This document shows positions 4,336 through 32,414 of a DNA stretch of 33,327 nt, piece after piece. The notes under the pieces are model-generated. The model was given only the letters and a program-made list of their open reading frames with translations, made no database searches and had not been told where the DNA came from. Both the position numbers and the translations under genes were made by a program. Numbering within the stretch: position 1 is the first letter of the stretch; the number at the start of each line of letters is the position of its first letter. Source of the DNA: an uncultured Prevotellaceae bacterium (GTDB lineage: Bacteria > Bacteroidota > Bacteroidia > Bacteroidales > Bacteroidaceae); contig OMSJ01000008.1 in assembly GCA_900313705.1 (NCBI GenBank), forward strand, positions 1-33,327, given 5' to 3'.

Positions 4336-5213
4336 ACGAATCGATTGTTATTGTATTCATCTTTTTCCACTTGTGCCTCTTCGTAACCTTTCTGCAGAAG
4401 AAGTTCTGCGACTTGCTCTGCATAAGACCTGTTCACCTCAAAGAAGATTTGCCCACCATTGGTAAGATGCTCTTGCCCGAAGTCGGCAATTGCCCTGTAG
4501 AAGAGCAGCGGGTCGTCATCGGGCACAAAGAGCGCAAGGTGCGGCTCGTGGTCAAGGACGTTCGCATCCATCGTCGAAGCCTCGCTTTCGCAGATGTATG
4601 GAGGGTTGCTGACGATAGCATCGAGTGAAAAGTGAAAAGTGAAAAGTGGATAATCAGAGTTACTTTCGTTCTCTGTCTCCTTTGGCAGGTTACTATTATT
4701 TTTCACTTTTAACTTTTCACTTTTCTCTTTTAATATATCCCCCTTCACAAACTCCAGCTTCGCACCAAGTCGCTCGGCATTCCTTCGGGCAAACGAGAGA
4801 GCCTCGTCCGAAACATCAAGAGCCGTCACTTCGTAGCCCGCCAAAGCCAACGTAATGGCGATGCAACCACTGCCAGTCCCGACGTCAAGCACCGAGCTTC
4901 CTTGTGCCACATTCTGCTTCACGAGCTCGACCAATTGCTGCGTCTCAGGCCTGGGAATAAGCACGCCTGGGCCAACGAGAAACGTTCTTCCGCAAAACTC
5001 TTCATGCACCAAAACATACTGCACAGGCTCACCATAGGCAACTCTATCAATAATTATTTGCAACTCTGCTTGCTCTTCTGCTGATAAAGTCGTATCTTTG
5101 CCGAGGAGAATGTCAGTACGAGAGAGACCGAAACGCTCGCCGAGGATGAGCTCATAAAGTGCTCTACCCTCGCCCGAACCATATCTCAACTGTAACTTCT
5201 GAAGTGCTTTCAT
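4311..5213 (-). CDS. prmC: Peptide chain release factor glutamine N5-methyltransferase
   Basis: 300 residues. The N-terminal helical domain (about 1-75) binds the release factor. The Rossmann methyltransferase domain has VLDVGTGSGCIAI at 108-120 (AdoMet site) and the catalytic NPPY at 203-206. PrmC methylates the Gln of the GGQ motif in release factors RF1 and RF2. Residues about 162-196 are a Lys/Asn/Ser/Glu-rich insertion, translated from a palindromic repeat (4624-4724); the family normally passes directly from VKGDIL-like sequence to the DAIVSNPPY strand. The insertion keeps the frame and sits in a loop before NPPY, so activity may survive. It is divergent from ribD, with a candidate TATCTTTG promoter only 4 bp before the start codon. 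Confidence 0.93.
   Translation of the reverse strand: MKALQKLQLRYGSGEGRALYELILGERFGLSRTDILLGKDTTLSAEEQAELQIIIDRVAYGEPVQYVLVHEEFCGRTFLVGPGVLIPRPETQQLVELVKQNVAQGSSVLDVGTGSGCIAITLALAGYEVTALDVSDEALSFARRNAERLGAKLEFVKGDILKEKSEKLKVKNNSNLPKETENESNSDYPLFTFHFSLDAIVSNPPYICESEASTMDANVLDHEPHLALFVPDDDPLLFYRAIADFGQEHLTNGGQIFFEVNRSYAEQVAELLLQKGYEEAQVEKDEYNNNRFVWARKIQD
4624..4724. repeat. Palindromic element with GTGAAAA heptad arms inside prmC
   Basis: The left arm 4624-4648 is GTGAAAA repeated at a 7-bp period. The right arm 4704-4724 is its inverted counterpart (CACTTTT units, one mismatch). The 55-bp centre is unique. Read on the prmC strand, it encodes about 35 extra residues without a stop or a frameshift. 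Confidence 0.85.
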
Positions 5214-6446: not shown

Positions 6447-9167
6447 TTATATATTATTCCCACTCATCCATTTCTTGCCGTTCTGAATGTAGAGCCTTCC
6501 CGGTTTTGCGAGTAAATATCCACCAAGGTGATAGACGCGAGCACTTGCCTCTTGTTCCTCGTCCCTCACTTCGTTCAGACCCGTGCCATTATCTTTCGCG
6601 CTAATCACGACGACGTTGTAGCTGTTTGGCTTCAGGACGAGACGTTTGCCGGGCTCAACAGACGCCTCGGCAGGCACGAAGCGCGTCGGCTTTTCGGGCG
6701 TGTTCTCGCCATTCAAAGTACCGCTAAGCGAAAGAGACGTTATGCTGCCCACCTCGCCGAAACCCGTCAAGTTGAGCGTCAAGCCACGTGTCTGAGTGCC
6801 GTAGTTCACGATGTGCAGCACAAGGGTGTCGCCTGCTTCGTTGCGCGTAGCAGTATAGTCGAGGTTGGCATTCGAGGAGCAGGAGCTTTCGACGAGCAGC
6901 GGCTGATGGTTCCTCGCAGCCATCTGCTGAGCATAGAACGGCGGTTGCATCCATACCTGCGAGGGCGAGAAGAAGATTTGTCCCTGGTCCCAGCCGTTGT
7001 CGTTCTGCTTGTAGGGCTGCAAGGCATTCGCCGGACTGTCGAGGGGCACGAAGCCTGCTGAGCGACGAACCACGTTGAGCATGACGGCATGGGCAAGTGC
7101 ACGGGCCATGTCGTGCGTGTTGCCGTTCTCTTCGAGGATGGCGCATCGCATCGAAGTCTGCGGGTTCCATTCGAGGAAGAGCTTCTGCATCTTGGCTATC
7201 TCCGCTTCGATCTCTTTAGCCTGTTGCGGCGTCTCGGTCCACGGATGGTAGTCCCAAAGGTCACATTTGCCGTCGAGCGATTGGAAGACGTACTTCATCG
7301 TCTCCAACTCATCCGGTCTCCACCAAGCTGCACTAATGAACTGCAGCTCAGGATAGACTGCATGAATAGCCTCGTAGAGCACAAGGTAACGCTCCACATA
7401 ATGTTCGTAGTCGCGACGGGCAGTACTGAGAAGATTCTCCTCGTTGCCTATCTCGATGTATTTAATAGAGGGGGCAAGGGGCGAGGAGCAAGGGGCAAGA
7501 GGATTGCTCTGGCAGTTGGTATTCTCCTGCTCCTTGCCCCTTGCTCCTTGCTCCAAGTAACTAATAGAGGGGGCAAGGGGCGAGGAGCAAGGGGCAAGAG
7601 GATTGCTCTGGCTGTTGGTATTCTCTTGCTCCTTGCCCCTTGCTCCTTGCTCCATGTAGCGAAGCAAGGCAAGCACGTCATCGGGATTGTCCTCGATGTT
7701 GATGGCGAAGCAAGGCTCCGTGCCGATAAGCCTGGCGAACTCGACGAATTCGGGTATGGCGAAGCCGTTAGTGGCGTAGCGATACCAATATCCATAATAG
7801 GGTTGACGCTCAAGGCGACTGCCCATCATGTTCCGGGTCATGTATTCCGCCGCATTAACCATCGTGCCGCCATAGCGAAGGAAGGTAAGGTTCTGTTTCC
7901 GGAAAGCCTCTGTGATGTCCGAACGGAACGGGTAAGAGTCGGTGCAGAGCAACACCTGATCGACCCACACACTACCCCCTTCCGCGAGTTGAAGCACGAA
8001 CCGTCCCTTCGGGTCGCTGTCGTCGGGAATCATCTCGACGTCGAAACGTTGCCAATCGTCCGTAATGCCGCTTATCTCCCCGCGAGCGTACTCCTTGCTT
8101 CCGTCTGCCGATTGCAGGGCAACTTCCACCCTACCCGACCCTTTCAGATACAGCGAAGTCTTGAGCTTTACGTCCTTATTGATGCCGATTCCCCAGCGGT
8201 TGAGGCCCATGTTATAAATGCCAACGCCTTGGCCGCCACATATCTTCTGCGCATATCTGCCGGTAAAAGGCTCGGAAGAGTCATGGTCGAAGGTTCCTTC
8301 GCCGAGGGCTGTCCACATGCCCGAAACGTTGGGGCCGTCGCTTTCGAAGGCGATGTCCTGTCCTGAGACCTTGAGGTTGCGGAAGGTTGCCGAGCCGCCA
8401 TAGGAACGCAAGCCTATGAAGCCTGACGTCAACGGGTTGTTCGTGTCCTCGTAGGTCTTGATCTTTGTGCCGTTTAGGTATATGGTAAGCTTCGCCTTGT
8501 CGATGATGACGCGCAGCTTGTTCCAGTTGCCCAGGGGGTTGAAGCTCGTGGGCGTGTCGGAGATGGGCTGCCAGTTCTGCTGATGCTTGCCGAGAACGAA
8601 GGAGCCGAGGCGGGCGTTCAAGGCCACCTCATAGCCGTTGAAGGCGTCGGCACCATTCGCCGCTCCCGAAACGTTCACGATAAGTCCGGCTATGGCATTC
8701 AGGTCGTCCATGCGGAATTCCACTTCGACGGAGCCGCTCGACAACTGCTGCTCCTCGTAGATGAGCTTGCCGTGACGGGACGTTTGCAACTGCGCCATGC
8801 CCGACGTGATGCTCCAACGCTCGTCGTAAGCCTTGAAGCCTTTGATGTCGCAAAAAGCCGGTTCTTCGAAGCCTTCACCGAAAATCTTCTGGTCATACAG
8901 GCCGCCATAGATTTCGTGGTTCACGTCTTCGGCTCCAGCGCCATAGATGAGCGGCTCGATGCAGCAGAGAACCTTGCTGGCATCCACGGTCAACGTCTGT
9001 GCCGAAGCCAATACTTGGAGCAAGGAGCAAGGGGCAAGGAGCAGGAGAATACCAACTGCCAAAGCAATCCTCTTGCCCCTTGCTCCTCGCCCCTTTGCCC
9101 CCTCTGAAAGACCGATGGCAGCAACGACGGAAAGTGACAAAAGTACACGTGTGTAAATGTTCAACAT
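6447..9167 (-). CDS. GH51-type alpha-L-arabinofuranosidase with repeat-derived insertions
   Basis: 906 residues from the ATG at 9165-9167 (MLNIYTRVLLSLS); longer upstream starts have no signal peptide. After the signal, EPLIYGAGAEDVNHEIYGG begins the catalytic domain. A LamG/DUF1080-like beta-sandwich (about 110-275) and a carbohydrate-binding-like module follow. The barrel continues with FLRYGG and IEIGNEEN, whose Glu576 is the likely acid/base, and ILEENGN, whose Glu679 is the likely nucleophile. Such enzymes release arabinose from plant arabinans and arabinoxylans outside the cytoplasm. Residues about 21-52 and 503-568 are translated from copies of one palindromic element; the first forms a second hydrophobic signal segment and the others a 2 x 33 residue insertion just before the acid/base strand. 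The tail (VYHLGG...LYIQNGKK) resembles a secretion or sorting tail. Whether the loop insertion is tolerated is unknown. Confidence 0.82.
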   Translation of the reverse strand: MLNIYTRVLLSLSVVAAIGLSEGAKGRGARGKRIALAVGILLLLAPCSLLQVLASAQTLTVDASKVLCCIEPLIYGAGAEDVNHEIYGGLYDQKIFGEGFEEPAFCDIKGFKAYDERWSITSGMAQLQTSRHGKLIYEEQQLSSGSVEVEFRMDDLNAIAGLIVNVSGAANGADAFNGYEVALNARLGSFVLGKHQQNWQPISDTPTSFNPLGNWNKLRVIIDKAKLTIYLNGTKIKTYEDTNNPLTSGFIGLRSYGGSATFRNLKVSGQDIAFESDGPNVSGMWTALGEGTFDHDSSEPFTGRYAQKICGGQGVGIYNMGLNRWGIGINKDVKLKTSLYLKGSGRVEVALQSADGSKEYARGEISGITDDWQRFDVEMIPDDSDPKGRFVLQLAEGGSVWVDQVLLCTDSYPFRSDITEAFRKQNLTFLRYGGTMVNAAEYMTRNMMGSRLERQPYYGYWYRYATNGFAIPEFVEFARLIGTEPCFAINIEDNPDDVLALLRYMEQGARGKEQENTNSQSNPLAPCSSPLAPSISYLEQGARGKEQENTNCQSNPLAPCSSPLAPSIKYIEIGNEENLLSTARRDYEHYVERYLVLYEAIHAVYPELQFISAAWWRPDELETMKYVFQSLDGKCDLWDYHPWTETPQQAKEIEAEIAKMQKLFLEWNPQTSMRCAILEENGNTHDMARALAHAVMLNVVRRSAGFVPLDSPANALQPYKQNDNGWDQGQIFFSPSQVWMQPPFYAQQMAARNHQPLLVESSCSSNANLDYTATRNEAGDTLVLHIVNYGTQTRGLTLNLTGFGEVGSITSLSLSGTLNGENTPEKPTRFVPAEASVEPGKRLVLKPNSYNVVVISAKDNGTGLNEVRDEEQEASARVYHLGGYLLAKPGRLYIQNGKKWMSGNNI
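7463..7660. repeat. Two tandem 99-bp copies of a palindromic GGAGCAA-arm element in GH51
   Basis: Copy A is 7463-7561 and copy B 7562-7660; they differ at only a few positions. Each has 7-bp-period arms (GGGGCAA/GGAGCAA units) and, at the other end, the inverted arm (TTGCTCC units), around a centre containing GGATTGCTCTGGC. The 99-bp unit is 33 codons, so both copies stay in frame. The encoded repeat begins EQGARGKEQENTN. Confidence 0.95.
9014..9105. repeat. Third, inverted copy of the GGAGCAA-arm element, in the GH51 signal peptide
   Basis: This 92-bp stretch matches the reverse complement of the 91-bp core of copy A (7467-7557) with one substitution and one inserted base. In gene orientation it encodes SEGAKGRGARGKR, then a hydrophobic core IALAVGILLLLAP, and SLLQV, joined directly to LASAQ. 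Confidence 0.95.
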
Positions 9168-30488: not shown

Positions 30489-31124
30489 ATGGAAGGAATT
30501 CGCAAGAAGCTTTTCGGTCCCGTGGTCTATTGGAACCTGATAGCAATGGTGCTCGTCGGCATTGCCCTGTGCATTGGCCTATGGATATGGATGACCAGTT
30601 ACACCATGCATGGTGAAGGCGTCGAAGTGCCCGACGTGAAGGGTATGACGCTTGGCGATGCCGAATACGCCCTCGAGAAACTCGAGCTGGTGGCATTTGT
30701 CGTAGACTCTGCCTACGTCCGTGGGCAGCCTGCCGGCATCGTGCTGGAGCAGTCGCCCGCCTTTGGCAGTCGCGTCAAGTCGGGGCGCGAGATTTACCTT
30801 ACCGTCAACCAGAAGCAGACGCCGACCAATACGATTCCCGACATCGCCGGCAACTGCTCGCGCCGCGAAGCGGAAGCCCGACTGCGGGCCCTGGGCTTCA
30901 AGATAGGCCCGATGGAGTTCGTCCCGGGCGACCCTGACTGGGTGATTGCGCTCAAGGTGAATGGTCGCGAGGTCTATACCGGAGAGCGAGTGCCCTGCGA
31001 TGCACCCGTAGTGCTGGTGGTCGGCAACAGCGACATGGAATCCGACGAAGGCGAGGAGGAAGAAATCGATGACACCTGGGGCAGTGAAACCGAAGCAGAA
31101 GACGGCTACGAAGAAGAGCTGTAA
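30489..31124 (+). CDS. Membrane-anchored PASTA-domain protein
   Basis: 211 residues from ATG 30489. A short basic cytoplasmic tail (MEGIRKKLFG) and one membrane helix (VVYWNLIAMVLVGIALCIGL) precede at least two periplasmic PASTA repeats: VEVPDVKGMTLGDAEYALEK with GSRVKSGREIYLTVN, and TIPDIAGNCSRREAEARLRA. The last 25 residues are strongly acidic. PASTA domains bind peptidoglycan fragments or beta-lactam-like ligands in other bacteria. There is no kinase or transpeptidase domain here. The order PASTA-rluD-ddl is common in Bacteroidetes and ties it loosely to wall synthesis. Confidence 0.9.
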   Translation: MEGIRKKLFGPVVYWNLIAMVLVGIALCIGLWIWMTSYTMHGEGVEVPDVKGMTLGDAEYALEKLELVAFVVDSAYVRGQPAGIVLEQSPAFGSRVKSGREIYLTVNQKQTPTNTIPDIAGNCSRREAEARLRALGFKIGPMEFVPGDPDWVIALKVNGREVYTGERVPCDAPVVLVVGNSDMESDEGEEEEIDDTWGSETEAEDGYEEEL

Positions 31125-31228
31125 GAAAAGGTGAAAAGGGAAAAGGTGAAAAGGGAAAAAGGGAAAAGGTGAAAAGGGAAAAAGGTAAAAAGGTAAAAAG
31201 GTGAAAAGGTGAAAAGGTAAAAAAGGGA
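31125..31228. repeat. GAAAAGG-type short-period array after the PASTA gene
   Basis: GAAAAGGT, GAAAAGG and GGAAAAAG units of 7-8 bp repeat for about 100 bp, starting at the base after the stop codon. One strand is almost pure purine plus rare T. Confidence 0.85.
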
Positions 31229-31242
31229 AGCATCCTCCCATA

Positions 31243-31362
31243 CAAACGACCAAACAACCAAACGACTAAACAACCAAACGACTAAACGACCAAACGACTA
31301 AACAACCAAACGACTAAACGACCAAACAACTAAACAACCAAACAACCAAACAACCAAACGAC
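31243..31362. repeat. AAACRACY 8-bp array before rluD
   Basis: About fifteen 8-bp units (CAAACGAC, CAAACAAC, TAAACGAC, TAAACAAC variants) fill the stretch up to two bases before GTG 31365. Unit composition is C/A-rich and unlike the purine array just before it. Confidence 0.9.
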
Positions 31363-31364
31363 AA

Positions 31365-32414
31365 GTGAACGTGGAAGACATATTGCTTGATGATGAGCTT
31401 GACGACGAGCTTCTGGATGGTCCGTTCTCGCCCGAGCAAGACGAAGAAGCCTCCCTCCTTGGGGAGAGGACGGAGGAAGGCTTCGAGCATTGGCGCATTG
31501 AGGTCGATAAGGGGCAGAGCTCTGTCCGCGTGGATAAGTTCCTCATGGACCACATGCCCGGCACAAGCCGCAACCGCATACAGAAGGCTGCCGAGGCTGG
31601 AAGCATCCATGCCAACGACAAACCCATCAAGAGCAGCTACAAGGTCAAGGCAGGCGACATCATCACGCTTGTCCTCGACCACCCAAAGCGCGACTGGGAA
31701 ATCATCCCGGAGGACTTGCCGCTCGACGTCATCTACGAAGACGATGCCTTGCTCGTCATCAACAAGCCAGCGGGCCTCGTGGTGCATCCCGGCTGCGGCA
31801 ACTACAGCGGCACACTCGTCAACGCACTTGCCTGGCATCTTCGCGACGACAAGGGCTTCGACCCCAACGACCCGACCGTCGGCCTCGTGCATCGTATCGA
31901 CAAGGACACCAGCGGCTTGCTCGTCATAGCCAAGACTGCCGACGCTAAGACAAGCCTCTGCAAGCAGTTCTTCTACCACACGACTCGACGCGAGTACAAT
32001 GCCCTGGTGTGGGGACCCTTTGCCGACGACGAAGGCACCATCACGGGCAACATCGGACGGCACGCAAAGGACCGTCTCCAGATGGACGTCTATCCGATGG
32101 ACGGCGAGATAGGGAAGCCTGCCATCACGCATTACCGAGTGCTCGAGCGTTTCGGACCAGTGACGCTCGTGGAGTGTCACCTCGAGACAGGCCGTACGCA
32201 TCAGATTCGTGCTCACATGCGGCACATCGGGCATCCGCTCTTTGCCGACGAGCGCTACGGCGGCTGCCAAATCCTCAGGGGAGAGCAGACGGCTTCCTAC
32301 AAGGCGTTCATCCACAACTGCGTTCTTCTCCAGCGAACTGCCCGAAGACTTCGAAGCCCTGCTGAACAAGTGGCGGACATACAGCAAGAACAGAGATTAA
32401 GGATTAGAGATTAA
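31365..32414 (+). CDS. rluD: RluD-family 23S rRNA pseudouridine synthase with damaged C-terminus
   Basis: 349 residues as read from GTG 31365; no better start exists. An acidic N-terminal extension precedes the S4 RNA-binding domain (SVRVDKFLMDHMPGTSRN). The catalytic motif HRIDKDTSGLL with its Asp is intact, as are the RTHQIRAHM and FADERYGG motifs. After AFIHNC the family normally continues with an RQALHA.TLGF block and then reaches a PEDF-type end. Here that block of roughly 25 residues is missing and the frame changes; the expected ending SSELPEDFEALLNKWRTYSK is present at about 32331-32400 in the +2 frame. So a deletion of non-multiple-of-3 length, or an assembly fault, has occurred. The core fold may persist, but the C-terminus is wrong. 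Confidence 0.88.
   Translation: MNVEDILLDDELDDELLDGPFSPEQDEEASLLGERTEEGFEHWRIEVDKGQSSVRVDKFLMDHMPGTSRNRIQKAAEAGSIHANDKPIKSSYKVKAGDIITLVLDHPKRDWEIIPEDLPLDVIYEDDALLVINKPAGLVVHPGCGNYSGTLVNALAWHLRDDKGFDPNDPTVGLVHRIDKDTSGLLVIAKTADAKTSLCKQFFYHTTRREYNALVWGPFADDEGTITGNIGRHAKDRLQMDVYPMDGEIGKPAITHYRVLERFGPVTLVECHLETGRTHQIRAHMRHIGHPLFADERYGGCQILRGEQTASYKAFIHNCVLLQRTARRLRSPAEQVADIQQEQRLRIRD

Follow-up and report, generated by a model that had tools for sequence, protein, structure and literature searches.

The window analysed here (the whole stretch of DNA, 33,327 nucleotides) belongs to a metagenome-derived draft genome of an uncultured rumen-type bacterium (G000; 2.83 Mb, 185 contigs, 80.5% complete). 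On its minus strand lies a gene for a secreted-type enzyme that contains three copies of one repeat element, the parts of which are as follows.

6447-9167, minus strand: GH51-like alpha-L-arabinofuranosidase gene (906 amino acids) with three element copies
9108-9146, minus strand: old hydrophobic core VLLSLSVVAAIGL, residues 8-20, homologous to VLLSLSAVAAISL in the ortholog of G005
9012-9107 (about), minus strand: net insertion of 96 bp with the hydrophobic reading KGRGARGKR followed by IALAVGILLLLAPCSLLQV, delimited by empty sites, a repeat match at 9012-9101 and a match to covariance model R1 at 9016-9100
8997-9011, minus strand: predicted cleavage region LASAQ, residues 53-57, the sequence ASAQTLTVD being common to G005 and G036
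7471-7555, plus strand (model orientation): element copy giving a polar peptide from the complement, i.e., the gene strand; 97% identical to 9012-9101 and the probable donor
7570-7654, plus strand: tandem partner copy, polar in the gene, within a 99-bp tandem unit and matched by covariance model R1

The gene starts with an ATG at 9165-9167, and its N-terminal reading is MLNIYTRVLLSLSVVAAIGLSEGAKGRGARGKRIALAVGILLLLAPCSLLQVLASAQTLTVD. The protein contains the Pfam domains Alpha-L-AF_C and 3keto-disac_hyd, and its relatives in the PDB are MgGH51 and arabinofuranosidases. By this enzyme, the nearest named relatives are Bacteroidales and Prevotellaceae assemblies, RUG606 and RUG11599 among them (85-86% over the best segment); a search of a plasmid collection returned no match. 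The reading frame has no internal stop, dN/dS against G005 is 0.131, and nonsynonymous to synonymous codon changes by branch are 40:96 for this gene, 41:114 for G036 and 10:59 for G005. As judged from these substitution patterns, the gene is under constraint.

DNA-level alignment placed the insertion, in frame, between the old core and the ASAQ region, and the site is empty in five orthologs of the genus; without the insert, the N-terminus of the G005 ortholog reads MLRIYTRVLLSLSAVAAISLPASAQTLTVD. The original prediction had proposed an inserted repeat copy of 92 bp at 9014-9105. The insertion itself stood, but the five empty sites extend it to a net 96 bp at about 9012-9107. The proposed order of RGARGKR, then IALAVGILLLLAPCSLL, in frame with LASAQ was borne out by translation of the minus strand, as was the persistence of the original core upstream of the element. 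Both the N-terminal and the middle elements are absent from all eight genus orthologs that were read. The motif EDVNHE is present at 78 of 80 loci from named genomes, and 77 of these have a readable N-terminus (EDVNHE preceded by at least 35 open residues); none of the 77 contains the N-terminal element. Likewise, the middle element precedes the motif YxExGNE, which we take to hold a catalytic residue, in none of the 62 named-genome loci having that motif. A relative that lacks the insertion and has the same residues by descent was searched for among the orthologs and not found.

The N-terminal insertion is known from one metagenome-derived genome only, and this genome is a draft assembly, as would be expected if the repeat had been misplaced in the contig. 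We give such an assembly artefact very little credence: the copy differs from both of its siblings (93-97% identity) and keeps the reading frame, and both flanks follow the ortholog order.

The three copies belong to a near-palindrome of about 84 bp, (GGRGCAA)x4 - GAGGAT - core of ~17 nt - ATTCTC - (TTGCYCC)x4, as derived from 18 aligned copies. A covariance model gave 56 strand-wise matches in the genome itself, corresponding to 29 distinct places, a number that excludes chance for the repeat. Many matches were also found in G013, G020, G027 and G072, and by blastn 25 of 101 genus genomes (the own genome included) match the element, often in one arm alone. At E <= 1e-8, none of 246 other genomes of the order matched; among the genomes listed, only two represent a different genus within the bacterium's own family. 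Similar to a MITE, the element has terminal inverted repeats (the inverted heptamer arms) and no gene of its own; no target-site duplication was evident at the two empty sites compared. Selection for an RNA structure was rejected as an explanation of the palindrome: not one of the 26 pairs in the consensus hairpin shows a compensatory change, so that the element looks like a DNA palindrome.

Copies lie in frame within unrelated conserved genes. In the own genome, these hosts include genes with matches to AroE (below the curated cut-off), LeuS, HisS, MiaB, beta-ketoacyl-ACP synthase, ArgS, a tRNA nucleotidyltransferase-like protein, a small GTPase (by its motifs presumably EngB/YihA), PrmA, TypA/BipA, phosphomethylpyrimidine kinase and NAD synthase; partial arms occur in UvrA, PurD and a DPP-IV-like protein. 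Some sites are common to several species, e.g., in HisS (G000, G020, G027) and LeuS (G000, G027, G072). One LeuS loop contains this element in G000 and G027 and other palindromes in G020, G024, G047, G051 and G053. The same loop is longer in G006 and measures 24-30 residues in 21 of 29 readable loci (L476-L505). Elsewhere in the window, a GTGAAAA-type inverted repeat pair at 4624-4730 lies, apparently in frame, within a PrmC-like gene with the reading KLKVK...FTFHFS, and two identical 41-bp tandem copies lie at 295-376, close to an open-frame start.

Frame usage was scored at 130 sites from nine genomes; the codon model had been trained on the window genes and was applied to the flanks only. 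Out of 122 full-length copies, 77 passed the two-flank coding test as in frame (18 of 28 in the own genome), while 45 without a clear two-flank coding frame and a further 8 partial copies were dropped. The signal-peptide copy, whose upstream flank is too short for this test, was retained manually. When the six frames of each copy were ranked by hydrophobicity (1 most, 6 least), the used frame had rank 6 in 39 copies, rank 5 in 30, rank 4 in 6, rank 3 in 1 and rank 1 in 1. This sole rank-1 copy is the signal-peptide copy, all six frames of which are open; the other 76 use the four least hydrophobic ranks. Its 15-residue mean hydrophobicity is 2.57, against 0.03 (SD 0.46) for all copies. Stops do not explain the choice, since between four and six frames are open in 69 of the 77 copies. 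When copies are merged into 52 sites, 45 of the 51 sites other than that of the signal-peptide copy still use the two least hydrophobic frames (binomial 6e-16 versus one third). The 45 dropped copies show a similar rank skew, and many are coding on one flank; they were rejected as a neutral frame control on both grounds. The typical hydrophilic reading is QGARxKEQENT...NPLAPC. As read from these coding frames, the usual product of the element is a polar loop, and the family is one of genus level. The proposal that one element has two coding outcomes depending on orientation, a signal-like hydrophobic one and a polar one, agrees with this split, which is statistically strong over the 77 in-frame copies.

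Both outcomes meet in the arabinofuranosidase gene. The N-terminal copy had been described as inverted relative to copies at 7463-7660, and indeed 7470-7559 is 97% complementary to 9012-9101 over 90 nt and 7569-7658 is 93% complementary. The same-gene repeat was therefore real, and its description could be refined to a tandem pair of a 99-bp unit at 7447-7644 (family D5). Read in the gene, the copies at 7470-7658 give EQGARGKEQENTN...NPLAPC, the polar peptide anticipated for the other orientation. The signal-peptide copy is 97% identical to the copy at 7471 and 93% to its tandem partner, and reaches at most 91% with copies outside the gene (over at least 70 nt). The two closest copies lie 1.45 kb apart, are mutually inverted and have the bases AAGTA beyond the arm in common. 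At 7471, AAGTA marks where the tandem pair joins and differs by one change from the native ATGTA of the gene; it is foreign to the signal-peptide site. The polar copy at 7471 of the same gene is the probable source of the signal-peptide copy, which would have been inverted in the process; part of this argument consists of these five bases. The likely order of events, deduced from identities and a few bases, is insertion before YIEIGNEEN, then tandem duplication, then inverted copying into the signal peptide.

Sec signals have a charged n-region, a hydrophobic core and small residues at -3 and -1. With the insert, the predicted signal grows from 24 to 56 residues and has the layout charge, core, charge, core, cleavage site. 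The Sec features are present in the charged stretch KGRGARGKR, a hydrophobic core and small residues at -3/-1 (ASA^Q). The best 12-residue Kyte-Doolittle mean is 3.10 for the element core IALAVGILLLLA versus 2.51 for the old core VLLSLSVVAAIG, and the net charge ahead of the element core is +5. From the end of the best 12-mer to the predicted cleavage site there are 11 residues with the insert versus 5 in the orthologs. An AlphaFold model from a 24-row alignment has helices at residues 2-23 and 30-53 with low pLDDT (51-67), and the polar insert at 510-565 is disordered (pLDDT <50). A lipoprotein signal was discarded: the usual lipobox does not fit a proline directly before the cysteine, as in LLAPC.

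Considering that the old core persists intact, with conservation in G005, and that tolerated inserts are common in the own genome, VLLSLSVVAAIGL may still perform the targeting, with the element as a neutral or mildly harmful spacer and the protein maybe left uncleaved and anchored by its second hydrophobic stretch. We consider this rather unlikely. About 36 residues now separate the end of the old core from the predicted cleavage site at ASAQ, compared to 5 in the orthologs, and the core is directly followed by a basic stretch; moreover, this copy alone among the 77 has the hydrophobic reading. Given that distance, the element core is probably the h-region, and the old core and the basic stretch would form an extended N-terminal part. 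Translation might also begin downstream, e.g., at a TTG at residue 36, which is in frame in the signal-peptide copy where the sibling copies have CTG; the element would then serve as a short signal peptide of its own, and what lies upstream would be untranslated. This is highly improbable, as both the ATG and MLxIYTRVLLSLS have been conserved in G005 and a start at residue 36 leaves no charged n-region.

We consider it probable that the element multiplies inside reading frames and that the inverted copy in the signal peptide was retained for its hydrophobic reading. The near-palindromic repeat of ~84 bp would spread within genes mostly in hydrophilic frames, until the inverted duplicate of a polar copy landed between the old core and the ASA^Q site. 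There it may have been kept since its reading places a charged stretch (KGRGARGKR) and a strongly hydrophobic core (IALAVGILLLLAPCSLLQV) next to the cleavage site. Candidate routes of copying are hairpin-mediated template switching and a transposase acting in trans. The presumed retention of the inverted copy suggests that signal peptides can retain the hydrophobic strand of such repeats.

A second repeat family, with octamers of the type GGTGAAAA/TTTTCACC, gave 62 pattern matches at 34 places in the own genome. At four places (L338, L340, L011 and L403) the repeat codes for the last part of the hydrophobic stretch in a predicted signal peptide, three (L331, L413 and L414) are clearly internal with the polar reading KRLKGEKV, and 27 are intergenic or unassigned by reading, including hydrophobic readings at L409, L416 and further places. 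The division between the four and the three parallels that of the first family and favours our preferred explanation. A hydrophobic reading at the cytoplasm-like L416, located at the protein start or ahead of it, speaks against that explanation. In the window, octamer arrays of the GGTGAAAA and CAAACGAC types are adjacent at 31124-31362, directly before a gene start at 31365.

The genes for a TPR protein (L340, contig C64, about 1955-2100) and an M23 peptidase (L401, contig C94, 13760-13905) have 141 ungapped nucleotides in common (score 137), a unit that comprises a signal peptide flanked by inverted octamer arms. Against the TPR signal unit, M23 orthologs of five genomes (five read of seven tried) score 15-19, although a few align weakly into the signal part in a protein search. 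Judging by these scores, a signal unit was apparently copied, together with its repeat arms, from one gene to another, unrelated one.

TPR orthologs in G027, G038, G053, G072, G089, G013, G017 and G014 also have inverted arms around the start codon and signal core, so that the arm pair occurs in nine species including G000, with several repeat families (L369, L374, L384, L390, L391, L421-L423). Shuffled sequences reached the within-genome arm score in 0 of 500 trials in eight genomes and in 4 of 500 in G072; 13 further TPR orthologs with self scores of 12-20 were left out of this test. Tandem structure alone at the TPR gene is not significant in G013 (28/300) and weak in G014 (8/300). The arms pair clearly better within their genome than with other families in G000, G038, G053, G089 and G013 (five of nine). 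For G027, G072, G014 and G017 a comparison across species scores at least as high as the arms do with each other, which lends no support to paired arm switching there. The genus may build and swap signal peptides via palindromic units. In such a unit, the start codon and the signal core would lie between inverted arms of heptamers or octamers, with the last part of the hydrophobic core encoded by the right arm, and the whole could be copied from gene to gene as a mobile cassette; the arabinofuranosidase would be one instance. This idea is tentative and we lean against it. It is slightly weakened by the fact that paired arm switching holds in five of the nine species and not in the bulk of them.

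In-frame palindromic elements are known from Rickettsia (RPE) and Wolbachia (PMC2229807, PMC10969869). As far as these accounts describe them, they too are short palindromic repeats found in frame in many unrelated conserved genes with a recurrent peptide. However, they differ in sequence, size (105-150 bp) and phylum, and tandem heptamer arms belong to the present element; the likeness claimed here is one of organisation. Yersinia RU-2/YPAL and ERIC RU-1f form an enterobacterial precedent (Delihas 2007, PMC2759123), yet with another element and host and, in the available part of that account, mostly in small open reading frames; that part describes neither a donor copy nor a frame count over in-frame copies. 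REP/RAYT (Y1) systems likewise involve short non-autonomous palindromes, with a Y1 transposase gene in some copy-rich genomes, but REPs, as portrayed in the part of the source at hand, are mainly extragenic (PMC3733652), unlike the present element. Strong Y1 transposase matches occur in three of five copy-rich genomes (G000, G013, G027) and are lacking in G020 and G072; nine copy-poor genomes gave no strong matches, with weak ones in G003 and G017. A short Y1 (IS200-like) transposase gene lies at L361, L362 and L363 (G027, G000 and G013, respectively). A role of the Y1 transposase as mobiliser of the element is suggestive only.

Long autotransporter signal sequences, of more than 50 residues, are described with an N1-H1-N2-H2-C layout (PMC2805444). 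In that description they resemble the present signal in length and in their order of charge, core, charge, core and cleavage site, but they occur in a different class of proteins, and in the present signal the second half is repeat-derived; the likeness would be convergent at most. The open-licence literature yielded no precedent from Bacteroidota or for signal peptides beyond the rickettsial and enterobacterial ones. As far as this literature shows, four things are new: the Bacteroidota family, the counted frame rule, a polar donor within the gene itself and a signal unit that was apparently copied as a whole.

Taken together, strand and frame decide whether one repeat unit gives a soluble loop or a membrane-active core, and in this survey of clear in-frame copies its most hydrophobic reading is found solely in a signal peptide. 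The family thereby joins the few described protein-coding palindromes, as one from Bacteroidota, and its natural insertions become a gauge of tolerance at each protein position. The arabinofuranosidase points to a concrete way in which export signals may arise or be replaced; if the cassette idea is true, this would be a general route to new export signals.
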